From the NCBI RefSeq assembly GCF_021228295.1, contig NZ_JAJQPD010000005.1, forward strand, positions 1-64,000: a stretch of DNA of 64,000 nucleotides. The letters are read 5' to 3'. Positions 1 to 29,337 of this stretch are shown here, piece by piece. The notes beneath the pieces are model-generated. The model saw only the letters and a program-made list of their open reading frames with translations. It did not search any database and was not told the origin of the DNA. Position numbers and translations under genes: made by a program. Numbering within the stretch: the stretch's first letter is position 1; the number at the start of each line of letters is the position of its first letter. This stretch comes from Agromyces humatus (lineage in GTDB: Bacteria > Actinomycetota > Actinomycetes > Actinomycetales > Microbacteriaceae).

Positions 1-283
1 TATCGAGACCACGCCCCCGTAAGCGCAGGCCTCGATACGGCGCTGGCGCGCCAACTCGACCGACGAACAACCCCGCCGGTCGAGAAGCGACGAAGGAGCG
101 TATCGAGACCACGCCCCCGTAAGCGCAGGCCTCGATACGGCGCTGGCGCGCCAACTCGACCGACGAACAACCCCGCCGGTCGAGAAGCGACGAAGGAGCA
201 TATCGAGACCACGCCCCCATAAGCGCAGGCCTCGACACGGCGCTGGCGCGCCAACTCGACCGACGAGCAACTCGTCCTCACCA
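1..283. repeat. 100-bp tandem array of palindromic repeats
   Basis: A unit of exactly 100 bp starts at 1, 101 and 201 and runs into the window edge on the left. Each unit carries one forward half (CTCGATACGGCGCTGGCGCG then CAACTCGACCGACG) and one reverse half (CCGGTCGAGAAGCGACGAAG then TATCGAGACC), so a unit can fold on itself. The third copy has small changes (AGCATATC, CCCAT, CTCGACACGG), so copies have begun to diverge. The array fills the 361 bases before the first gene; I see no other gene there. Confidence 0.92.
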
Positions 284-361
284 GTGAAGCGGTGTCAGGT
301 GTTGTCCGGCAATGCCCGTGATGCGGCATCCGCGCCGCCGCAAGCGGCCCACAATCAACCG

Positions 362-658
362 ATGGCGCATCTCTACATACTGCGCTGCCGCGATGGCTCG
401 TTCTACGTCGGCAGCACGATCGATCTCGATCGCCGCATCGCACAGCACGCACACGGCGAAGGAGCCGCGTACACCCGCCGGCGACTGCCGGTCGTGTTGG
501 TCTACCACCAACAGTTCGACCGCATCGAGCAGGCGTATTCGGCCGAGAAGCAGGTGCAGAACTGGAGTCGGGCGAAGCGCATCGCACTCATTGAAGGGCG
601 GTTCGAGCTGCTGCCGTCGTTGGCGAAGAAGCGGTTCGGGCGCCCGTTGGTCGAGTAG
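362..658 (+). CDS. Small GIY-YIG nuclease family protein
   Basis: A 98-residue protein made of little more than one GIY-YIG nuclease fold of the UvrC N-terminal/YhbQ type. The paired strands read LYILRC (residues 4-9) and FYVGST (14-19), followed by Arg24-Arg25, His29, Tyr37 and a candidate metal-binding Glu62, spaced as in solo GIY-YIG proteins. No DNA-binding domain is attached. An in-frame ATG at 284 exists, but the added 26 residues lie in repeat-edge sequence and match nothing in the family, so I start at 362. The last codons (Val-Glu-stop) are GTCGAGTAG, which is part of the flanking palindromic repeat. The gene sits between two arrays of that repeat. Family membership is clear; the role (repair, or moving the repeats) is unknown. 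Confidence 0.85.
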   Translation: MAHLYILRCRDGSFYVGSTIDLDRRIAQHAHGEGAAYTRRRLPVVLVYHQQFDRIEQAYSAEKQVQNWSRAKRIALIEGRFELLPSLAKKRFGRPLVE

Positions 659-842
659 CGGGCGACCTCTCGTCGGTCGAGTAGTGGCGGAGGCCGCGTA
701 TCGAGACCATCCGCGGGTCTCGATACGGCGCTGGCGCGCCTACTCGACCGACGGCGGGAGGTCTCGATACGGCGCTGGCGCGCCTACTCGACCGACGGGC
801 AGGGTCTCGATACGGCGCTGGCGCGCCTACTCGACCAACGGC
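648..842. repeat. Mixed-orientation array of the palindromic repeat
   Basis: One or two reverse copies (GGTCGAGTAG at 648 and 679) are followed by three forward copies beginning GGTCTCGATACG near 717, 761 and 803, each ending CTACTCGACCGACG or a variant. The array begins inside the stop codon of the nuclease gene and ends three bases before the stop codon of the convergent permease gene, so it may also act as a folded 3' end for both transcripts. Confidence 0.9.
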
Positions 843-845
843 GGG

Positions 846-1751
846 TCACCCCTTGACCGCACCGCCGAGCAGGCCCGACACGAACTGCTTCTGAAACACC
901 AGGAACAGCAGCATGAGCGGCAGGGTCGCGAGCAGCGACCCGAGCATGAGCCCCGAGTAGTCCACGCGCGACATGCCGATCATGGTGTTGAGCGCCACGG
1001 GCACCGTGTACTGGTCTTCGGTGTTCAGCATCAGCAGCGGCCAGATGAACGCGTTCCACTGGCTGATGAACGTGTAGATCACGAGCGCGGCGATCTGCGG
1101 GCGCGCCACGGGCAGCACGATGCGGTAGAACGTGCGCAGCTCATTCGCCCCGTCGATGCGCGCCGCCTCGATGAGCGACACGGGGAAATCAAGGAATCCC
1201 TGTCGCATGAGGAAGATTCCGAACGCGTTGGCGAGGAACGGCAGGATGACGGCCTGGTACGTGTCGATCCATCCGACGCTCGCCATCATCTGGAACAGGG
1301 GCACGAGCAGCACCTGCATCGGGATCATCATCGTGACGAGCACGACACCGAGCAGCACCCCGCGTCCGCGGAACCGATACGTCGCGAGCCCGTACCCGCA
1401 CATGATGCTCACGATCGAGCTGAACACGGTGTAGACGACCGCGATCGCCAAGCTGTTGAACATCACGCGGCTGAAGTTCACCGACTCCTGCAGCCGCGCC
1501 AGGTTCTCCCAGAGCTCGCCGCCCGGCAGCATCGGCAGCGGCGTGCCGAACAGGTCGGAGGTCTGGTGCGTCGACGCGATGACCATCCACGCGAACGGCA
1601 GGATCGAGATCACGCTCGCGATCGCGAGCGCCAGATACACCGGTGAGCGCAGGATGCCGCGTTGCAGCGCCGGCCCGCGGCCGGCAGGCGCCGGTTCACG
1701 GGCATCGGATGTCGCGGGGTTGACCGATGCCAGGGCGGACGTCGCGGTCAC
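846..1751 (-). CDS. Sugar ABC transporter permease (MalG/CUT1 type)
   Basis: Inner-membrane subunit of a binding-protein-dependent carbohydrate importer, 301 residues with a GTG start at 1751. About six hydrophobic segments are visible, starting with the segment around SVISILPFAWMV. The cytoplasmic coupling loop EAARIDGANELRTFYRIVLP fits the EAA motif that contacts the ATPase. The GTG lies four bases inside the end of the upstream permease (GTGA overlap), so the two should be translated together and form the membrane heterodimer. No ATPase gene is nearby, as is common for actinobacterial CUT1 systems that share one MsiK/MalK-like ATPase. Substrate cannot be told from sequence. Confidence 0.92.
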   Translation of the reverse strand: MTATSALASVNPATSDAREPAPAGRGPALQRGILRSPVYLALAIASVISILPFAWMVIASTHQTSDLFGTPLPMLPGGELWENLARLQESVNFSRVMFNSLAIAVVYTVFSSIVSIMCGYGLATYRFRGRGVLLGVVLVTMMIPMQVLLVPLFQMMASVGWIDTYQAVILPFLANAFGIFLMRQGFLDFPVSLIEAARIDGANELRTFYRIVLPVARPQIAALVIYTFISQWNAFIWPLLMLNTEDQYTVPVALNTMIGMSRVDYSGLMLGSLLATLPLMLLFLVFQKQFVSGLLGGAVKG

Positions 1752-2668
1752 GGCTTCTCCCTCATGAGTCGGAACTGCACGATCGCGATGATCGCGGTGA
1801 TGACGACGAGCAGCCACGCGATCGCCGAGGCGTAGCCGAAGTCGAACTGGCGGAACCCGACCTTGTACAGGTACAGCACGGGCGTGAGCGTCGCATCGTT
1901 CGGTCCGCCCTCGGTGAGGATGAAGTTCTCGTCGAAGAGCTGCAGCGCCCCGATGGTCGAGGTCACCGTGGTGAAGATCAGCACGGGCCGCAACTGCGGG
2001 ATGACGATCTTTGTGAAGATCTGCCAGCGGCCGGCGCCGTCGATGCGGGCGGCCTCGTAGAGCTCGGCCGGAATCGACTGGAGTCCCGCGAGGATGATGA
2101 CCATGTTGTAGCCGGTCCAGCGCCAGGTGATCGCACCGATCAGCGCGATGCGCGCCCACCACTCGTTGTTGAGCCAGTCGATCGGTGCCACGCCCACGAA
2201 GGCGAGCAACTGGTTGACCGCTCCCCCGTCGGTGGCGAGCATGACCCGGAACACGACGGCGTAGGCCACGAGCGTGGTGACGGCCGGCAGGAAGGTGAAG
2301 AGCCGGAACCCCGACCGGAATCGAAGCCACGACTGGTTGAGCAGGTACGCGAGCCCCAGGGCCAGCCCGATCATGAGCGGCACCTGGATCACGAGGATGA
2401 TGCCCGCGTTCAGCAGGCTCTTGCCGACGAGCGGGTCCTTGAAGAGTCGCGCGTACTGCTCGAGGCCGACCCAGGTCGACACGCCGCCCGAAGTGGCGAA
2501 GAAGCTCTGCCAGAGCGACGACAGCAGCGGGTAGGTGAAGAAGACGATGAGCAGCGCGACCGCGGGAAGCACGAACCACGCGCCCGGGCGCTGGAGCCTT
2601 CGCCCCAGCGCCCGGCGCCGCGTGGCCGGCTTCGCCGCCGCTCGTGCGGCTGTGGCGGTGGTGGCCAT
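1748..2668 (-). CDS. Sugar ABC transporter permease (MalF/CUT1 type)
   Basis: Second membrane subunit of the same importer, 306 residues. A basic N-terminus rich in Ala and Arg precedes the first membrane segment (WFVLPAVALLIVFFTYPLL). The EAA coupling loop reads EAARIDGAGRWQIFTKIVIP near residue 200. The ATG at 2668 lies two bases after the stop of the binding-protein gene, and its stop overlaps the next permease by four bases. The order binding protein, MalF-like, MalG-like is the standard CUT1 layout. Confidence 0.93.
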   Translation of the reverse strand: MATTATAARAAAKPATRRRALGRRLQRPGAWFVLPAVALLIVFFTYPLLSSLWQSFFATSGGVSTWVGLEQYARLFKDPLVGKSLLNAGIILVIQVPLMIGLALGLAYLLNQSWLRFRSGFRLFTFLPAVTTLVAYAVVFRVMLATDGGAVNQLLAFVGVAPIDWLNNEWWARIALIGAITWRWTGYNMVIILAGLQSIPAELYEAARIDGAGRWQIFTKIVIPQLRPVLIFTTVTSTIGALQLFDENFILTEGGPNDATLTPVLYLYKVGFRQFDFGYASAIAWLLVVITAIIAIVQFRLMREKP

Positions 2669-2670
2669 GA

Positions 2671-3972
2671 CTACTCGGCGATCTCGCGCCCGGTCGCGGT
2701 GGCGATCTGGTCGGCCGCGTCCTGCAGCGTGGTCGCCGGGTCGGCGCCGTTCAGCACGGCTGCCACGACCGCGTTCGCCACGATGTCGCTCGCCTCGGCG
2801 TTGTCGGTCGTGAAGGTGATCGCCGGGATGCTCGCGGTCTGCTCGGCGAACAGCTCGTAGACGGGCTGGCCGCCGAAGTACTCGAGCGGCTCCTGGAAGT
2901 ACGCGTCCTGCAGGGCCGGGAGGTACGACGGGAACAGGCCCTCGGTCGCCATCATCGACGCCTGGTTGTCGGCGTCGGCGAGCGCGTAGTCGACGAACGC
3001 GGCGGCGAGCTGGGGGTTCTTCGCCTGGGCGGGCACCGCGAGCCCCGAGCCGCCGTTGTTCGACGTGCGGGCGCCGCCCTGCTCGAAGGCGGGCAGCTCG
3101 GTGACGCCGTACGTGCCGGCGTGCTCGGGAGCGTCACCCTGCAGTGTTCCGATCCACCACACGGCCTCGACGGTCGCCGCCGAGTCGCCGTCCTTCGCGG
3201 AGCTCACGCGGCCGTCCCAGCCCTTGACGTTCTTCAGGAGCCCCTTCTCGTTCATCGTCTGCAGCAGGGTGAGCGCGTCGACCGCCTCGGGCGAGGTGAT
3301 CGTGATGTCGCCGGCGTCATCGAAGAGGCCGATCCCCTGCTGCTGGAGGAGCATCTGGAAGGTGCCGCCGGTCGAGATGTCAGCCGAGAGCAGGGTGTGC
3401 CCGGTCTTCGCCTTGATGGTCTCACCGGCCGCGACGAGGTCGTCCCAGGTCTCGATCGACGACGGGTCGACGCTCGCCGCATCGAAGTAGTCGGCGCGGA
3501 AGAACAGGCCGACCGTGCCCGAGTCCCACGGCGCGACCTTGAGCGCGCCGTCGGCGTCGGACTGCGCCGACCACTTGAACGGGTCGAAGTCGGCTTCGGC
3601 ATCACCGAGCACCGGTGTGAGGTCGACGAGCCCCGTCGGGAACTCGTTGATGTACCCGGGCGCGCGATCGGTCTCGACCGTGACCACGTCGGGCAGTCCG
3701 CTGCCGGCCTGCAGCCCGACCGAGAGCTTGTCGTAGGCGTTGTCGTAGCCGACGTCGACCACGTTGACGGTGGTGTCGGGGTGCTCGGCCTCGAACTCGT
3801 CGCCCAGGCGGTCGAGCGCCGTTGCCGCGACATCCCACGACCACACGGTGATCTCGCCCGACACCTTGGCGTCGGGGTCGAGCACGACGGCGCTCGGGGC
3901 GCCGGCGCCCATGGTGCAGCCCGAGAAGAGGGCGAGTGCGGCCACGGGGACGAGCAGGGTGCGCGCTTTCAA
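2671..3972 (-). CDS. Extracellular sugar-binding lipoprotein (CUT1 ABC transporter)
   Basis: A 433-residue solute-binding protein of family 1 that would capture a sugar outside the membrane and deliver it to the two permeases downstream. A lipoprotein signal is plain: MKARTLLVPVAALALF then SGC as lipobox, with the mature Cys near residue 19. The body shows family features such as ITVWSWD near the mature start and later GTLQGDAP, and a GGSGLAV stretch near the hinge. I choose a TTG start at 3972 because AAAGGAG sits five bases before it; the open frame extends further upstream to 4149 only by reading through the palindromic repeat array. A GTATAC palindrome lies about 30 bases upstream. Confidence 0.9.
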   Translation of the reverse strand: MKARTLLVPVAALALFSGCTMGAGAPSAVVLDPDAKVSGEITVWSWDVAATALDRLGDEFEAEHPDTTVNVVDVGYDNAYDKLSVGLQAGSGLPDVVTVETDRAPGYINEFPTGLVDLTPVLGDAEADFDPFKWSAQSDADGALKVAPWDSGTVGLFFRADYFDAASVDPSSIETWDDLVAAGETIKAKTGHTLLSADISTGGTFQMLLQQQGIGLFDDAGDITITSPEAVDALTLLQTMNEKGLLKNVKGWDGRVSSAKDGDSAATVEAVWWIGTLQGDAPEHAGTYGVTELPAFEQGGARTSNNGGSGLAVPAQAKNPQLAAAFVDYALADADNQASMMATEGLFPSYLPALQDAYFQEPLEYFGGQPVYELFAEQTASIPAITFTTDNAEASDIVANAVVAAVLNGADPATTLQDAADQIATATGREIAE

Positions 3973-4000
3973 GGTGACTCCTTTGTCGTGTTTGTGTTCG

Positions 4001-4019
4001 GTATTTTGTATACAGCATA
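4001..4019 (-). promoter_or_regulatory. TGTATACA operator-like palindrome before sugar operon 1
   Basis: The core TGTATACA (4007-4014) sits in TTTTGTATACAGCATA, about 35 bases upstream of the TTG start of the binding-protein gene. The same core precedes the second sugar-transport operon at 9426-9433. Such AT-rich palindromes in a GC-rich genome are typical of GntR- or LacI-type sugar regulators; no such regulator is encoded in this window. Confidence 0.6.
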
Positions 4020-4032
4020 CGTGATCGGATGC

Positions 4033-4410
4033 CCCTCGGTCGAGTAGCACCGAAGGCGCGTATCCACCCCGTCGGTCGAGTAGCACCGAAGGCGCGTATC
4101 GAGACCACGCCGTCGGTCGAGTAGCACCGAAGGCGCGTATCGAGACCACGCCGTCGGTCGAGTAGCACCGAAGGCGCGTATCGAGACCTGCACCGGCGAG
4201 GGGTCTCGATACGGCGCTGGCGCGCCTACTCGACCGACGAAGGGGGTCTCGATACGGCGCTGGCGCGCCTACTCGACCGACGAAGGGGGTCTCGATACGG
4301 CGCTGGCGCGCCTACTCGACCGACGAAGGAGGTCTCGATACGGCGCTGGCGCGCCTACTCGACCGACGAAGGAGGTCTCGATACGGCGCTGGCGCGCCTA
4401 TTCGACCGGG
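4033..4410. repeat. Inverted array: four reverse then five forward palindromic repeats
   Basis: Reverse copies (GGTCGAGTAGCACCGAAGGC) start at 4038, 4074, 4115 and 4156. Forward copies (GGTCTCGATACGGCGCTGG) start at 4202, 4245, 4288, 4331 and 4374 with an exact 43-bp period. The two blocks face each other, making a long imperfect inverted repeat between sugar operon 1 and the end of sugar operon 2. The last copy supplies the stop codon of the GH63 gene. This fills the 425 bases between those genes apart from the operator. Short spurious reading frames cross it. Confidence 0.93.
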
Positions 4411-6134
4411 GGGCTCGAGAGCCCCACCGCGAGGTCGACGAACAGCGCCGCCGACCAGCCGAACGCCGTGGTGGCGGTCGCCGCCTTCTGGCCCGTGATC
4501 GGGTTGAAGTACTCGTGCGGCCCGCCGCCGTGCATGACGAGGGCGACCGTGCGCTCGGCAAGGTCGAGGGCGAGCCCCGCGCGCCCCGACGCGCGCAGGC
4601 CCGCGACGATGAGCGCATTCGTGTTCACCCACACGGGCCCGCGCCACATGTGCTCGGGAGAGAAGTCGGCATCGCCGACCGCAACCGTCGGCACCGCCCA
4701 CGCGGCACCGAAGCGACGCGGATCCGCGAGCGCGGCCACGAGCCGGTCGACGATCGGTTCGGGAAGGTGCCCGGTGAGCAACGGCATCAGTCCGACGACC
4801 GTGTCGCTCACGACGTCGACGCCGGCGGCGCGAGCCCGGAACAGCCCGCGTTCGTCGTCCCACAGATCGAGGAGCAGCCCGAGCGTTCGCTCGGCGCGCG
4901 AGCGATGTGCTGCGGCATCCGCATCGCCGAATCGTTCCGCGAATCGCGCGAGCTCGAGATCCTGCAGCACGAGGTACGCGCCGAGGTCGGGCGCCGTCGT
5001 CGGCAGCGGGCCGTCGAAGATGGGGCTGTCGTCGAGCCCCGACGAGTACGGATGACCGTACTCGGGCATGCCGTCGCCGTCGAGGTCGGACGCCGCGAAC
5101 CACCAGTCCTGCGAACGGCGGATCCTCGCGAGCTGCTCGCGCGCCCAGTCGTCGGCGGGCTCGATCTCGAGCACCTTCGCGAGCGCCCACGCGGCGAGGG
5201 GCGGCTTGGTCAGCGGCACGGGCGCCGAGGGGTCGGCGATCGCCGAGCCGGCGCGCCGCAGGGTCTCGCGGTCGCTCGGCGGCAGGTCGTCGCTCGTCGC
5301 CAGCACCCCGTGCTCGTGCACGACATCGGGCAGCTGCCCGTCGTCGCTCGGGAACCGGAACGCGAGCTCGAGCTGCTCGCGAGCGAGCTCGGGGTCGCCG
5401 TGCCGCAGGCCGACCGCGATGAAGTAGGCATCCCACTGCCAGAGCCCGACGTACCCGATCTTCGAGGGCACGACGGCACGTGCATGCCCGAGCGCCGGCA
5501 ACTCGACGATGTTGGCGCCGAGCACCCACCAGCAGAATGCCGTCATCGACTGCAGGTCGCGGCGCACTCGCGGGCAGCGCTCGAACCAGTCGAGCCAGAT
5601 CGTCTCGGTTGCCGCGAGGTCCGCGGGATGCGTGACGGATGCCGCGTGCTGAACGTTGCGGTCGGCGCCGATGTCGAGGCGCGCCGCGGTGGTCTCGTCG
5701 TCGAGCGCGATTCGGGTGAGCGCGCCGTCGGGCGTCGTCCACTCGATCGACATCCCGTCGGTCGAGTAGGCGCGCAGCGCCGTATCGAGGCCTTGCCCGT
5801 CGGTGGTCTCGATACGCTCGCTGGCGCTCGCTACTCGACCGACAGTGAGGGCATGCGGCCCGGCGAACGTCAGTCCGATGCCGCCGCCGAACTCGATCAC
5901 GTGCGGCAGCACCGCCGTGATCGGCAGTGCCGCCCCGTCGCGATCGCGCACGACGAGCGTGTCGAGCACCCGGCACTCGGCGAGCGACCGCTCGTACTCC
6001 GCCGTGTGCACGCGCACGCCGTCGCCCTCGCGGAAGACGAGGACACGCGAGCGGGGCAGGGTGAACGGCGCCCGCACGAGGTCGAGGTGCTCGCCCGCGA
6101 GCGCGGCGAGGGCAGCGGCATCCGTCACCGTCAT
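4398..6134 (-). CDS. GH63-type glycoside hydrolase (glucosyl/mannosylglycerate hydrolase-like)
   Basis: A 578-residue (alpha/alpha)6-barrel glycosidase of the GH63/trehalase-like group, resembling cytoplasmic mannosylglycerate and glucosylglycerate hydrolases and bacterial alpha-glucosidases. Landmarks are GLWQWDAYF, KPPLAAWAL, SSGLDDSP (near residue 365, likely with the acidic catalytic residue) and GGGPHEYFNP (near 540, candidate second acid). There is no signal peptide, so it should act inside the cell on what the linked transporter imports. The ATG overlaps the upstream permease by four bases. Two repeat copies sit inside the gene in frame (residues about 96-126), and the stop codon itself comes from the downstream array. 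Exact substrate is an inference. Confidence 0.85.
   Translation of the reverse strand: MTVTDAAALAALAGEHLDLVRAPFTLPRSRVLVFREGDGVRVHTAEYERSLAECRVLDTLVVRDRDGAALPITAVLPHVIEFGGGIGLTFAGPHALTVGRVASASERIETTDGQGLDTALRAYSTDGMSIEWTTPDGALTRIALDDETTAARLDIGADRNVQHAASVTHPADLAATETIWLDWFERCPRVRRDLQSMTAFCWWVLGANIVELPALGHARAVVPSKIGYVGLWQWDAYFIAVGLRHGDPELAREQLELAFRFPSDDGQLPDVVHEHGVLATSDDLPPSDRETLRRAGSAIADPSAPVPLTKPPLAAWALAKVLEIEPADDWAREQLARIRRSQDWWFAASDLDGDGMPEYGHPYSSGLDDSPIFDGPLPTTAPDLGAYLVLQDLELARFAERFGDADAAAHRSRAERTLGLLLDLWDDERGLFRARAAGVDVVSDTVVGLMPLLTGHLPEPIVDRLVAALADPRRFGAAWAVPTVAVGDADFSPEHMWRGPVWVNTNALIVAGLRASGRAGLALDLAERTVALVMHGGGPHEYFNPITGQKAATATTAFGWSAALFVDLAVGLSSPPVE
5757..5845. repeat. Palindromic repeat pair inside the GH63 coding sequence
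   Basis: A reverse copy (GTCGGTCGAGTAGGCGCGC) and a forward copy (GGTCTCGATACGCTCGCTGG ending CTACTCGACCGACAG) lie head to head within the glycosidase gene. They keep the reading frame and encode about 28 residues (VASASERIETT... AYSTDGMS) in the N-terminal sugar-side domain, with no stop in the gene's frame. Confidence 0.88.
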
Positions 6135-7081
6135 CGTCCGCCGAGGCCCGACGCGGCCATGCTGTTCAGGATTCGGCGCTGGCCGATGATGAAGGCGATC
6201 AGCATCGGGATCGTCGCGACCGCCGACGCCGCCATCACGAGCCCGTAGTTGATCGCACCGAACTGCCCGCGGAAGCTCGACAGCAGCAGCGGCACGGTGA
6301 ACAGGTCGGGCGTGTTCAGCAGCACGAGCGGGAACAGGAAGCTGTTCCACACGTCGAGGGCCACGATGATGCTGAGCGCCCCCAGACCCGGCTTCAGGTT
6401 CGGCAGGATGACGCTCCAGAAGATGCGCCACCGACCGGCACCGTCGACGATCGCGGCCTCCTCGAGCTCCTTCGGCAGCGACATGACGAACTGGCGCATC
6501 AGGAACACCGCGAACGGGTTCACGAGCATCGCCGGCACGATGAGCGACAGGTGCGAATCGACCCAGCCGAACTGCGCCATCAGCAGGTAGAACGGAATCA
6601 GCGTCACCTGCTTCGGAATCATCTGCGTCGCGAGGAACACGATGAAGATCACCCGGCTGCCGCGGAACTTGATGCGCGCGAACGCGTACCCCGCCATCGA
6701 GGCGGTGAGCAGGGTGCCGACGACCGCGAGCACGGCGATGTAGATGCTGTTGAAGTAGGCCTGCGCGAAGGGCGCCGCGTTCCAGGCCTCGACGTAGTTG
6801 TCGAGGGTCCATGGCGCGGGCCAGAAGCTCAGCGGATCCTGCAACAGCTGCGGCAGCGTCTTGAACGACGTGATGAGCATCCACACGAACGGGAACACCA
6901 TCGCGGCACCCGCCACGATGAGGGCGACGTGCAGCAGGGTGGAGCTCAGGCGACGGCGCCCGCGCCCGGCACGTGCGCTGCCCGGGCGCACCTCGAGGTC
7001 GGGCGCGACGATCGCGATCGTCGAGTCGGTCGGCGCGTCGCGCACGCCATCGGTGAGTCGGGTCATCCGCTGGTCGCTCAT
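6131..7081 (-). CDS. Sugar ABC transporter permease (MalG/CUT1 type), system 2
   Basis: A 316-residue membrane subunit. About 50 polar residues precede the first membrane segment (LLHVALIVAGAAMVFPFVWM), and the coupling loop EEAAIVDGAGRWRIFWSVIL is a clear EAA motif. It overlaps the MalF-like gene upstream and the GH63 gene downstream by four bases each (ATGA both times), tying import and hydrolysis into one translational unit. As in operon 1, no ATPase is encoded here. Confidence 0.92.
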   Translation of the reverse strand: MSDQRMTRLTDGVRDAPTDSTIAIVAPDLEVRPGSARAGRGRRRLSSTLLHVALIVAGAAMVFPFVWMLITSFKTLPQLLQDPLSFWPAPWTLDNYVEAWNAAPFAQAYFNSIYIAVLAVVGTLLTASMAGYAFARIKFRGSRVIFIVFLATQMIPKQVTLIPFYLLMAQFGWVDSHLSLIVPAMLVNPFAVFLMRQFVMSLPKELEEAAIVDGAGRWRIFWSVILPNLKPGLGALSIIVALDVWNSFLFPLVLLNTPDLFTVPLLLSSFRGQFGAINYGLVMAASAVATIPMLIAFIIGQRRILNSMAASGLGGR

Positions 7082-10187: not shown

Positions 10188-11318
<1,131 letters not shown>

Positions 11319-17914: not shown

Positions 17915-19369
17915 TCAGACCGACGAGGCGGCAGCCCCGCGCGCGGCCGCGAGCCCTGAGAAGGAACGCAGGTAGAGCGGGCTCGACCCGAGCGCGAGGT
18001 ACAGCAGTCCGCAGGCGACGAGCGTCGGAACGAGCCCCAACTGCTCGGCCGCGAACCCACCGAGGAACGCCCCGAGCGGCATCGTCGCCGCGACCCCGGC
18101 CGTCGTGGCGCCGAACACCCGCGCCCGCATGCCGTTCGGGATCAGCCCGTACATCGCCGTGGAGATCATCGGGTTCAGCGCTCCGGCCGCGAGCCCCGAC
18201 GCGGCGAGCAGTGGCAGCAGCACGGGCACCGGCGCGCCCGCCGCCATCGCCAGGTACGGCGGAGCACCCGCCAGCACGAAGCACGTCGCGAACATCACCC
18301 GCCCCGAGAACCGATGGCCCACGACCCCGAACAACGCCGAGCCGGCGAGGGCGCCCGCGGCGAAGCATCCGACCATGAAACCCAGCAGCGCCGGATCGCC
18401 GAGCACCTCGGTCGCGTACAGCGGCTTCAGCACCATGACGCCGGCCGCATCGATCGCGTTCGTGAGCGTCACGAGCACCACGATCGCGCGCAGCAGCGGC
18501 TGGGTCACGACGAACCTGATGCCGGCGACGAAGCCTCGGCCCGAGGCATCCGTCTGTTCGTGCGCATCGGTGTGCTGCGAATCGGATGCCGCGACCCGGC
18601 GTGGCACGAAGCACAGCACCAGCAGCGCCGAGATGAGGAACCCGCCCGCGTCGACGACGAGTGCCGGCATCGGGCCGAGCAACGCGACCAGGACGCCGGC
18701 GGCGCCCGCGCCCACCATCATCGCGGTGCGCTGCACGGCCGACTGCGCCCCGGCGGCGCGGGCGATCGGGGTGCGCGCGAGCGCCGCGAGGTCGGGCGTG
18801 ATCGAGGTCTTCGCGGTGTCGCCCGGCGGGTCGAGCAGGCCGCCGAGGAAGACGAGCGCGAGCAGCGCCCCGAAGGGCAGCCCGACCGTCGCATGCAGCA
18901 CGGGGATCGCGAGGACCGTGAGGGCGCTCGCGACATCGGCGACGATGCTCGACGCGCGGTAGCCGAAGCGGTCGACGAGGACGCCGCCGAAGGCTCCGCC
19001 GATGACGAGCGGCACGGTGGCGAAGACGCCGACCACGCCCGCCGCGAGCGGGGAGCCGGTCTGCGTCAGGGCGATGATCGGGATCGCCACCAGCGCGATC
19101 GCGTTGCCGCCGAGCGAGAAGAAGGCCGCGGTGAGGTTCGCGATCAGCGGGAGGCGGCGGCGCGGCGGCCCCGTCGGCGTCGGCGTCGTCGTCGGCGTCG
19201 GTCGAGTAGGACGCGCAGCGCCCGTATCGAGACCGCCCGTCACGTCGAGCGCGGGGTCGGATGTCGCGGTGTCGCTCCTCGTGGTGCCGGATGTCGCGGG
19301 ATCGGATGTCGCGGTGCCGAATGTCGCGGGGCCGGATGTCGCGGTGTCGCTCTTCGTGGTGCCGGTCAT
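17915..19369 (-). CDS. MFS exporter (drug/efflux type)
   Basis: A 484-residue major facilitator with twelve predicted membrane segments. The first six begin with ANLTAAFFSLGGNAIALVAI near residue 90, and the loop 2-3 region reads GGVLVDRFGYRASS, the family's DRxGRR-like motif A. The first 80 residues are unusual: a Thr/Ser/Asp/Pro-rich tail encoded by short DNA repeats and one copy of the palindromic repeat. The ATG at 19369 follows AGGAGCGG and overlaps the ArsR-type gene by four bases (ATGA), so the regulator most likely controls this exporter. Substrate is unknown. Confidence 0.88.
   Translation of the reverse strand: MTGTTKSDTATSGPATFGTATSDPATSGTTRSDTATSDPALDVTGGLDTGAARPTRPTPTTTPTPTGPPRRRLPLIANLTAAFFSLGGNAIALVAIPIIALTQTGSPLAAGVVGVFATVPLVIGGAFGGVLVDRFGYRASSIVADVASALTVLAIPVLHATVGLPFGALLALVFLGGLLDPPGDTAKTSITPDLAALARTPIARAAGAQSAVQRTAMMVGAGAAGVLVALLGPMPALVVDAGGFLISALLVLCFVPRRVAASDSQHTDAHEQTDASGRGFVAGIRFVVTQPLLRAIVVLVTLTNAIDAAGVMVLKPLYATEVLGDPALLGFMVGCFAAGALAGSALFGVVGHRFSGRVMFATCFVLAGAPPYLAMAAGAPVPVLLPLLAASGLAAGALNPMISTAMYGLIPNGMRARVFGATTAGVAATMPLGAFLGGFAAEQLGLVPTLVACGLLYLALGSSPLYLRSFSGLAAARGAAASSV
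19197..19240. repeat. Palindromic repeat copy inside the MFS gene
   Basis: GTCGGTCGAGTAGGACGCGC...GTATCGAGACC reads through the MFS frame as about 15 residues (GLDTGAARPTRPTPT) between the disordered tail and the first membrane segment. It is a reverse-orientation copy. Confidence 0.8.
19259..19365. repeat. 32-bp direct repeats, 75 bp apart, in the MFS tail
   Basis: GGATGTCGCGGTGTCGCTCC... at 19259-19290 and the same at 19334-19365 with one change. Between them are further GGATGTCGCGG copies. The spacing of 75 bp is 25 codons, so recombination between the copies would shorten the tail without a frameshift. Confidence 0.85.
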
Positions 19370-29171: not shown

Positions 29172-29337
29172 GGCGGGTTGAGGAGCGACGAAGGAGCGTC
29201 TCGAAACCCGCGGGAGGTTTCGAGACGGTCGCTGCGCTCCCTCCTCAACCCACGGGCTACGAGACGGTCGCTGCGCTCCCTCCTCAACCCACGGGTTACG
29301 AGACGGTCGCTGCGCTCCCTCCTCAACCCACGGGGTG
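29172..29337. repeat. 39-bp tandem repeat of a palindromic-family variant
   Basis: Three exact-period copies of CGAGACGGTCGCTGCGCTCC...CTCAACCCACGGG start at 29221, 29260 and 29299. An inverted relative (GGGTTGAGGAGCGACGAAGG...TCTCGAAACC) sits at 29172-29204, making a head-to-head pair. The CGAGAC and GAGGAGCGACGAAGGAGCG parts relate it to the main family. It fills the gap between the GNAT and ATPase genes. Confidence 0.9.

Follow-up and report, generated by a model that had tools for sequence, protein, structure and literature searches.

Inverted palindromic repeats of matching class around a small stand-alone GIY-YIG nuclease: a candidate enzyme–repeat pair of bacterial genomes

Dispersed palindromes that have no known partner enzyme represent an open problem, and a small nuclease encoded in several phyla is a candidate for such a partner. 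The locus considered here brings the question into focus: near the left edge of the window (the whole analysed stretch of DNA, 64,000 nt), a gene for a 98-aa GIY-YIG nuclease stands among palindromic repeats, and the original prediction held that this enzyme could cut and spread them in the place usually taken by the transposase RAYT. In the passages on RAYT used here (PMC2817692, PMC8266576), rayt genes are described as fast evolving, “always” flanked by inverted palindromes, co-evolving with them and present in relation to the abundance of the cognate repeat. Does the nuclease form a pair of this kind with its palindromes, and if so, how might it act on them?

The nuclease gene and the repeats around it

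The first base of the window coincides with the first base of a contig (C11) belonging to a genome of 4.04 Mb, and since this contig starts inside a tandem array, the assembly is interrupted at the repeat, which leaves the left array incomplete. The features of the window are as follows:

1–270, no strand assigned: left repeat array with a 100-nt tandem unit, truncated at the contig end
78–110 and 178–210, minus strand: palindrome units of the left array, within the 100-nt tandem array
28–61, 128–161 and 228–261, plus strand: degenerate units of the left array (2–3 mismatches)
362–658, plus strand: stand-alone open reading frame of the GIY-YIG nuclease (ATG at 362, TAG at 656–658, 98 aa)
649–658, plus strand: repeat box GGTCGAGTAG, the TAG of which is the nuclease stop codon
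675–708, minus strand: palindrome unit of GGTC class, the first whole unit 3′ of the gene
716–749, plus strand: unit of GGTC class, inverted partner of 675–708
760–793, plus strand: unit of GGTC class
803–836, plus strand: unit of GGTC class
4074–4188, minus strand: three tandem GGTC-class units (4074–4106, 4115–4147, 4156–4188)
4202–4407, plus strand: five tandem GGTC-class units, the last (4374–4407) with one mismatch
5760–5840, no strand assigned: inverted unit pair inside a glycoside hydrolase gene (5805–5840 exact; 5760–5792, identified by eye, has a degenerate outer stem)
10192–10224, plus strand: dispersed GGTC-class unit
19200–19234, minus strand: dispersed GGTC-class unit
29176–29250, no strand assigned: inverted pair of GGTT class, as found around the second nuclease of this genome

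The sole Pfam match of the 98-aa protein is the GIY-YIG domain (PF01541; E 2.1e-17, 63.6 bits against a cut-off of 22.6). Residues Y5, Y15, G17, R25, H29 and E62 are all present, and in the alignment of relatives the corresponding columns are conserved in 125/127 (Y5), 126/126 (Y15), 127/128 (R25), 127/128 (H29) and 125/127 (E62) rows, Y15, G17, R25, H29, E62, W68 and K72 each being kept in at least 125 of the 125–128 rows filled. The conserved tyrosine, arginine and glutamate of the set Y5, Y15, R25, H29 and E62 are presumably the catalytic residues. A domain above the curated score together with these residues assigns the protein to the GIY-YIG nuclease superfamily. With E allowed up to 1, the PDB sequences matched are those of UPF0213 proteins only, namely 1zg2 (E 3.2e-16) and 1ywl. 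Across 16 pairs of nucleases, one of them from a clade without units, dN/dS amounts to 0.03–0.15, i.e. the gene is under strong purifying selection. A second nuclease of the same genome (L002), 57% identical to the first, resides in arrays of the different, GGTT class.

Copies of the 100-nt tandem repeat occupy positions 1–100 and 101–200, with a third one (78% match) starting from 201; in the right array the units follow each other with a spacing of 43–44 nt. The 34-nt core, searched with at most 3 mismatches, gave 11 matches in the window and none in 100 shuffles, and genome-wide the GGTC class has 42 exact copies and the GGTT class 111 copies, reversed controls giving 0 in both cases. Thus all three structural claims made for this locus, an intact GIY-YIG core in a 98-residue nuclease, a gene boxed in by repeat arrays and a stop codon that itself belongs to a repeat, were borne out by the profile score with the conserved residues, by the occurrence of one palindrome on both sides beyond chance and by the TAG of the 649–658 box, respectively. 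Overlap of stop codon and repeat box recurs in 15 out of the 184 distinct loci, including 7 from Chloroflexota.

Apart from this, the pair at 5760–5840 lies in frame in the MGH1-like glycoside hydrolase gene (window positions 4401–6137, minus strand), where it encodes about 27 residues that fall beyond the Pfam domain; a search for a close homologue of this hydrolase without the unit pair found none for comparison. A known structured RNA was considered for window positions 1–6000 and rejected, as Rfam returned two matches of chance level (E 0.21 and 0.37).

Architecture and folding of the palindromic unit

In a fixed reading direction the layout of the unit is O5-TCGA-N-ACG-(stem and loop)-CT-N′-CTC-O3. 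Pairing of the O3 arm with O5, and of N′ with N, follows from 230 distinct units collected without requiring pairing. Since the units are mutual copies, the events counted are not independent; in these terms the first outer pair is C:G 112 times and T:A 106 times (218/230 paired against 111 expected), N and N′ are paired in 206/230 units (121 expected), a further 12 showing C:A and 5 T:G, and the inner stem covaries likewise. Classes differ in the O5 arm and include GGTC, GGTT, CCCT, CGTT and others. The generic pattern of the unit occurs 10–14 times per 64 kb of simulated sequence, so lone units mean little.

Folded individually as DNA, the palindromes differ in their propensity to fold relative to shuffles: z is −2.8 for the canonical unit at 716–749 and −0.4 for 671–708 of the window, −1.9 for a GGTT unit, −5.2 for a Chloroflexota unit and +0.6 for a CCCT unit, which means that the 671–708 and CCCT-class units fold no better than shuffled sequences. 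The canonical unit reaches its lowest energy when TCGA pairs with TCGA, which leaves the covarying outer arms open. From these predictions a folded substrate seems likely for classes with a long stem, while the outer arms, as an alternative to being arms of a hairpin, might serve as duplex half-sites for a dimeric protein.

The repeats share with REPs, BIMEs and REPINs the arrangement in inverted pairs and arrays. High copy number is shown by the 42 GGTC and 111 GGTT copies of this genome, and close inverted pairing by 400 kb of genome G180, with 15 pairs in −/+, 9 in +/− and 1 in same-strand orientation. They differ from REPs in the core, here TCGA and CTC with variable outer arms, and the GTAG tag of REPs, though present in the canonical class, is not invariant: its T corresponds to the N′ position and covaries with N, giving GAGTAG, GAGGAG or GAGCAG in other classes. 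Another point of comparison is the CGTC REPs, characterized by a CGTC tag, a stem of 8–9 bp beginning with AT and a CCA tail, which “apparently lack a dedicated transposase” (PMC3733652) and in this respect are similar to the palindromes discussed here. Identity of the two, suspected from the flanks of locus L104, was rejected because the architecture differs when the units are compared by eye with the published description (PMC3733652).

Association of units and classes with the nuclease

Relatives of the nuclease were gathered by protein similarity alone, resulting in 78 named loci and in 101 hits distributed over 75 of 299 Microbacteriaceae genomes; five of the named loci (L035, L045, L055, L086 and L091) duplicate family loci, reducing the named set to 73. 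With a unit regarded as flanking if found within 400 nt, both sides are occupied in 48/73 named loci and 78/101 family hits as compared to 1/271 control placements; one side is occupied in 18/73, 7/101 and 41/271, respectively, and no unit is nearby in 7/73 named loci and 16/101 family hits. Counted over the 78 named loci, with groups taken from the record titles, two-sided units accompany 41/51 nucleases of Actinomycetota, 10/17 of Chloroflexota, 1/4 of Bacteroidota and 1/6 of others; all 17 Chloroflexota loci have at least one unit, while at least one side is occupied in 42/271 control placements. The pairing is found mainly in Actinomycetota and Chloroflexota, and the flanking units are mostly inverted. 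The same bracketing is seen without any motif: alignment of both flanks as inverted repeats reaches a score of at least 30 in 84/102 distinct loci versus 76/2817 control placements. Among 184 distinct loci, 128 are two-sided, with the innermost pair oriented −/+ in 84, +/− in 15 and on the same strand in 29 (25% −/+ expected); units upstream of the gene are predominantly on the minus strand (252 against 76 plus) and downstream units on the plus strand (236 against 87 minus). Both sides carry the same class in 111 of these 128 loci, shuffles giving at most 49, and the units of two-sided loci lie at a median of 11 nt past the stop codon and 75 nt upstream of the aligned start.

Plasmid-borne relatives, 10 of 24 records examined, comprise two two-sided loci, both from Methylobacterium (L172 and L174), two one-sided (L173 and L176) and six without units, including the YazA of Bacillus. 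The Methylobacterium palindromes are of TCCT class and have an orientation opposite to that of most other loci. Ten of the 16 unit-less family loci are neighbours on the nuclease tree (L238–L240, L242, L244–L246, L248, L250, L251) and may constitute a housekeeping branch; one pair from it, L239 and L240, combines conserved neighbours with low dN/dS.

The class of repeat follows the lineage of the nuclease. On a tree built from 94 columns, with many forks unresolved, 35 class changes suffice for 132 loci, whereas shuffles require at least 57; the label counts omit the 21/186 rows without a clear class, in which the top class was seen once. For Microbacteriaceae alone 22 changes were obtained in 78 loci, and shuffling of classes within 28 genera reached 22 in none of 1000 trials. 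The same correspondence is met on the scale of whole genomes, where counts of cognate copies include the flank units themselves: at least 5 copies of GGTC are held by 20/29 genomes whose nuclease bears this label, 11/46 other nuclease genomes and 11/224 nuclease-less ones; for GGTT the figures are 26/30, 8/45 and 15/224, and for CCCT 10/13, 2/62 and 12/224. Where a genome has only one label of the three, the labelled class ranks first in abundance in 12/17 (GGTC), 16/18 (GGTT) and 8/10 (CCCT) cases. The CGTT class is present in 4 of 50 chosen genomes, all four of the same genus; of the three among these 50 with CGTT nuclease flanks, G215 has 99 copies, G258 15 and G232 none. Paralogues of one genome may differ: apart from the two nucleases described above, flanked by GGTC (L001) and GGTT (L002), G021 combines GGTC with CCCT, while in G271 and G182 two copies are of GGTC and GGTT class and the third has no units. 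Landing of the gene among whatever repeat is common in the genome would not easily yield both class matching and differing paralogues. Separately, a palindrome of the type CCCTTCGAC..GCTCAGGG reaches 277–463 copies in G050, G071, G120, G140 and G266, the nucleases of which are flanked by the same class, and 172–298 copies in genomes of the same genus with no nuclease match (G134, G175, G187 and G224).

The canonical repeat is found in 71/299 and the nuclease in 75/299 family genomes: 48 have both, 27 the nuclease only, 23 the canonical repeat only and 201 neither (odds ratio 15.5; the within-genus test of this association covered 31 genera). At least 5 copies of the GGTT or CCCT class are held by 15 of the 27 nuclease-only genomes, and when all three classes (GGTC, GGTT, CCCT) are taken together, repeats are present in 68/75 nuclease genomes versus 48/224 others and at a level of at least 20 copies in 47/75 versus 17/224; permutation within 33 genera reproduced the association in none of 20000 trials. 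The 48 genomes that carry 50 of the 78 named loci were counted for the canonical class only, and 27 contain it. Both genomic checks proposed initially, whether orthologues usually have the same repeat on both sides and whether repeat copy number tracks the presence of the gene, gave affirmative answers, the second also within genera, so that the pairing suggested from one locus is supported beyond it by two-sided flanks, class matching and co-occurrence in genomes.

The association has exceptions. Of the 17 nuclease-less genomes with at least 20 repeats, seven exceed 100, with 627 in G045 and 298 in G187; repeats thus persist without the nuclease and perhaps multiply without it, which counts against a strict need for the enzyme. 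A nuclease hidden in the 23 genomes having the canonical repeat only was considered and rejected: PF01541 is detected in 21 of them, with the best matches in frames of 544–950 aa, a length expected of UvrC, and eight weaker matches in the same set belong to frames of 290–657 aa. The profile gave no match in the other two, G012 and G156, which are 82% and 88% complete.

Gain, loss and movement of the gene, and possible mechanisms

Signs of mobility are given by comparison of related genomes. Nine searched genomes of one genus share an intergenic site at which six contain nuclease sequence together with units and three (L254, L259 and L260) neither the nuclease nor any unit; among the six copies the one in L253 is inverted, that in L255 has an in-frame stop and that in L258 is apparently frameshifted. 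Weaker second matches of this comparison (L261–L269) were set aside. One of the empty-site genomes, G058, has no nuclease match and not a single GGTC, GGTT or CCCT copy genome-wide, and another, G350, has 0 units in 400 kb sampled, equal samples of two relatives containing 25 and 49. Between the same neighbours the gene is found inverted in L128/L134, L132/L221 and L210/L229, the last pair having no recognisable units, and nucleases 85–91% identical occur in non-matching neighbourhoods (L056/L107, L115/L122, L205/L209). Searching for empty sites of single units, we could align four places, one of which presents a near-clean single-unit difference (G347, L301 8175–8207, versus G180, L313), the rest being too diverged; neither a target-site duplication nor a target-site rule emerged from these four places. 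Two side observations concern the surroundings of the gene. The site common to the nine genomes (L252–L260) adjoins GTTTCACGTGAAAC motifs that resemble parS sites. L197 has its upstream neighbour in common with L208 and its downstream one with L226, an arrangement suggestive of a rearrangement breakpoint at the nuclease gene.

Taken together, these data lead us to favour, with a probability of about 0.6, the reading that the nuclease gene and the palindromes compose one selfish system in which class-specific cutting is the spreading step. The small nuclease would recognise its cognate palindrome via the class-specific outer arms and the fixed TCGA and CTC elements; the substrate would most likely be a hairpin, either an extruded cruciform or single-stranded DNA at the replication fork, and a nick introduced near its foot would help repair or replication to copy the repeat elsewhere. 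Placed between inverted units, the gene would be kept and moved as an autonomous cassette, with dispersed units and inverted pairs as its non-autonomous copies. GIY-YIG enzymes are known as hydrolytic nucleases rather than strand-transferases, and we therefore prefer a homing-like repair route; the same property speaks against the selfish pair, since a purely hydrolytic nuclease alone does not insert DNA at new sites. Weighing in the folding results made our confidence in it slightly lower. Repeat-rich genomes lacking the nuclease would be explained by loss of the gene after the spread, by analogy with RAYT, for which the passage on REPtrons states such loss.

Several other explanations deserve consideration. 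A structure-specific nuclease may act as a caretaker, removing or resolving hairpins and cruciforms of repeats spread by something else, and repeat-rich genomes would then retain the enzyme because repeats are harmful without it. The exclusively UPF0213 matches in the PDB agree with this, as do a review passage that joins Slx1, YhbQ and YazA, the strong purifying selection and the correlation of the gene with repeat load; but such a role predicts neither boxing of the gene by inverted units of its own class nor different classes for paralogues of one genome, and 17 nuclease-less genomes live with at least 20 repeats, so we consider it rather unlikely. That the gene is a passenger, caught between repeats moved by another enzyme and travelling without acting on them, is in line with repeats found without the gene and with its inversions and relocations, which fit a passive segment between inverted repeats. 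Yet in 800 kb from two repeat-bearing genomes with 74 units only one other gene-sized interval is boxed, the class tracks nuclease lineage rather than host genus, the arrangement recurs in Chloroflexota, and no candidate RAYT was found to do the moving, all of which makes a mere passenger improbable.

The proximity of units to the gene also admits that they are binding sites controlling its expression, or terminators, with distant copies being incidental; up to hundreds of matching copies elsewhere and the joint presence or absence at the site common to nine genomes would be left unexplained, and we regard this as very improbable. Hardly any credit can be given to REPs driven by RAYT with the nuclease irrelevant, in spite of the resemblance of imperfect palindromes in inverted pairs to REPs and REPINs. 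The lack of RAYT, claimed originally for this locus, was confirmed by a profile search that did not find Y1_Tnp in this genome; the domain occurs in 3/299 family genomes, none of which holds GGTC, GGTT or CCCT repeats, and RAYT as a driver was rejected on these grounds.

Compared with known systems, the selfish pair most resembles RAYT (TnpA-REP): a stand-alone gene for an enzyme of DNA-cutting type lies between inverted imperfect palindromes, the enzyme co-evolves with its repeat as in REPtrons, and presence of the gene correlates, with exceptions, with the abundance of its cognate. The enzyme itself is different, a GIY-YIG protein of about 98 aa with no Y1 domain instead of an HUH tyrosine transposase, and has low dN/dS unlike the fast-evolving rayt genes. 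Judged by analogy, the nuclease shows the associations typical for RAYT in a less strict form and, not being a RAYT, looks as if it works like one. Its closest solved relatives by sequence, the Slx1-like UPF0213 proteins YhbQ and YazA (1zg2, 1ywl), are likewise small single-domain GIY-YIG proteins. YazA of B. subtilis (L180) and a Sphingomonas relative (L175) differ by lying in housekeeping-type clusters with no unit nearby; L173, another relative from Sphingomonas and in a cluster of that type too, is flanked by two units, both on the same side. A non-eukaryotic Slx1 group is listed in a 2006 survey; the literature drawn on includes PMC1564403, PMC7017083, PMC1839093 and PMC8049555. With GIY-YIG homing endonucleases the proposed system would share the promotion of inheritance of the enzyme’s own encoding DNA, yet neither an intron nor an extra DNA-binding module was seen for the 98-aa protein, and the signature of group I intron endonucleases (TIGR01453) scored 19.8 bits against a cut-off of 56.05.

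Among the matches listed from the open-licence literature, which is without preprints and most subscription journals, there was no report of a GIY-YIG nuclease paired with REP-like repeats, though one may exist elsewhere; a search by literal sequence found 547 papers, and of the 40 listed none had a title pointing to the subject. If the proposed role is true, it implies a second, RAYT-independent route of making and moving REP-like repeats, based on a hydrolytic nuclease instead of an HUH transposase; GIY-YIG enzymes would gain a new role in the evolution of bacterial genomes, and nucleases that differ naturally in their palindrome specificity would become open to study as a set, the pairs of differing class within one genome being suitable for testing against each other. 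Whether one superfamily of dispersed O5-TCGA-(stem)-CTC-O3 palindromes, including the CCCTTCGACAAGCTCAGGG type, is spread in several phyla by class-matched single-domain GIY-YIG nucleases is a broader proposition, on which we see the chances as evenly balanced.

One more locus (L046, 3001–3267) lacks units as defined here, but its gene is bracketed by a long inverted repeat (alignment score 194), so other types of palindromes may exist.
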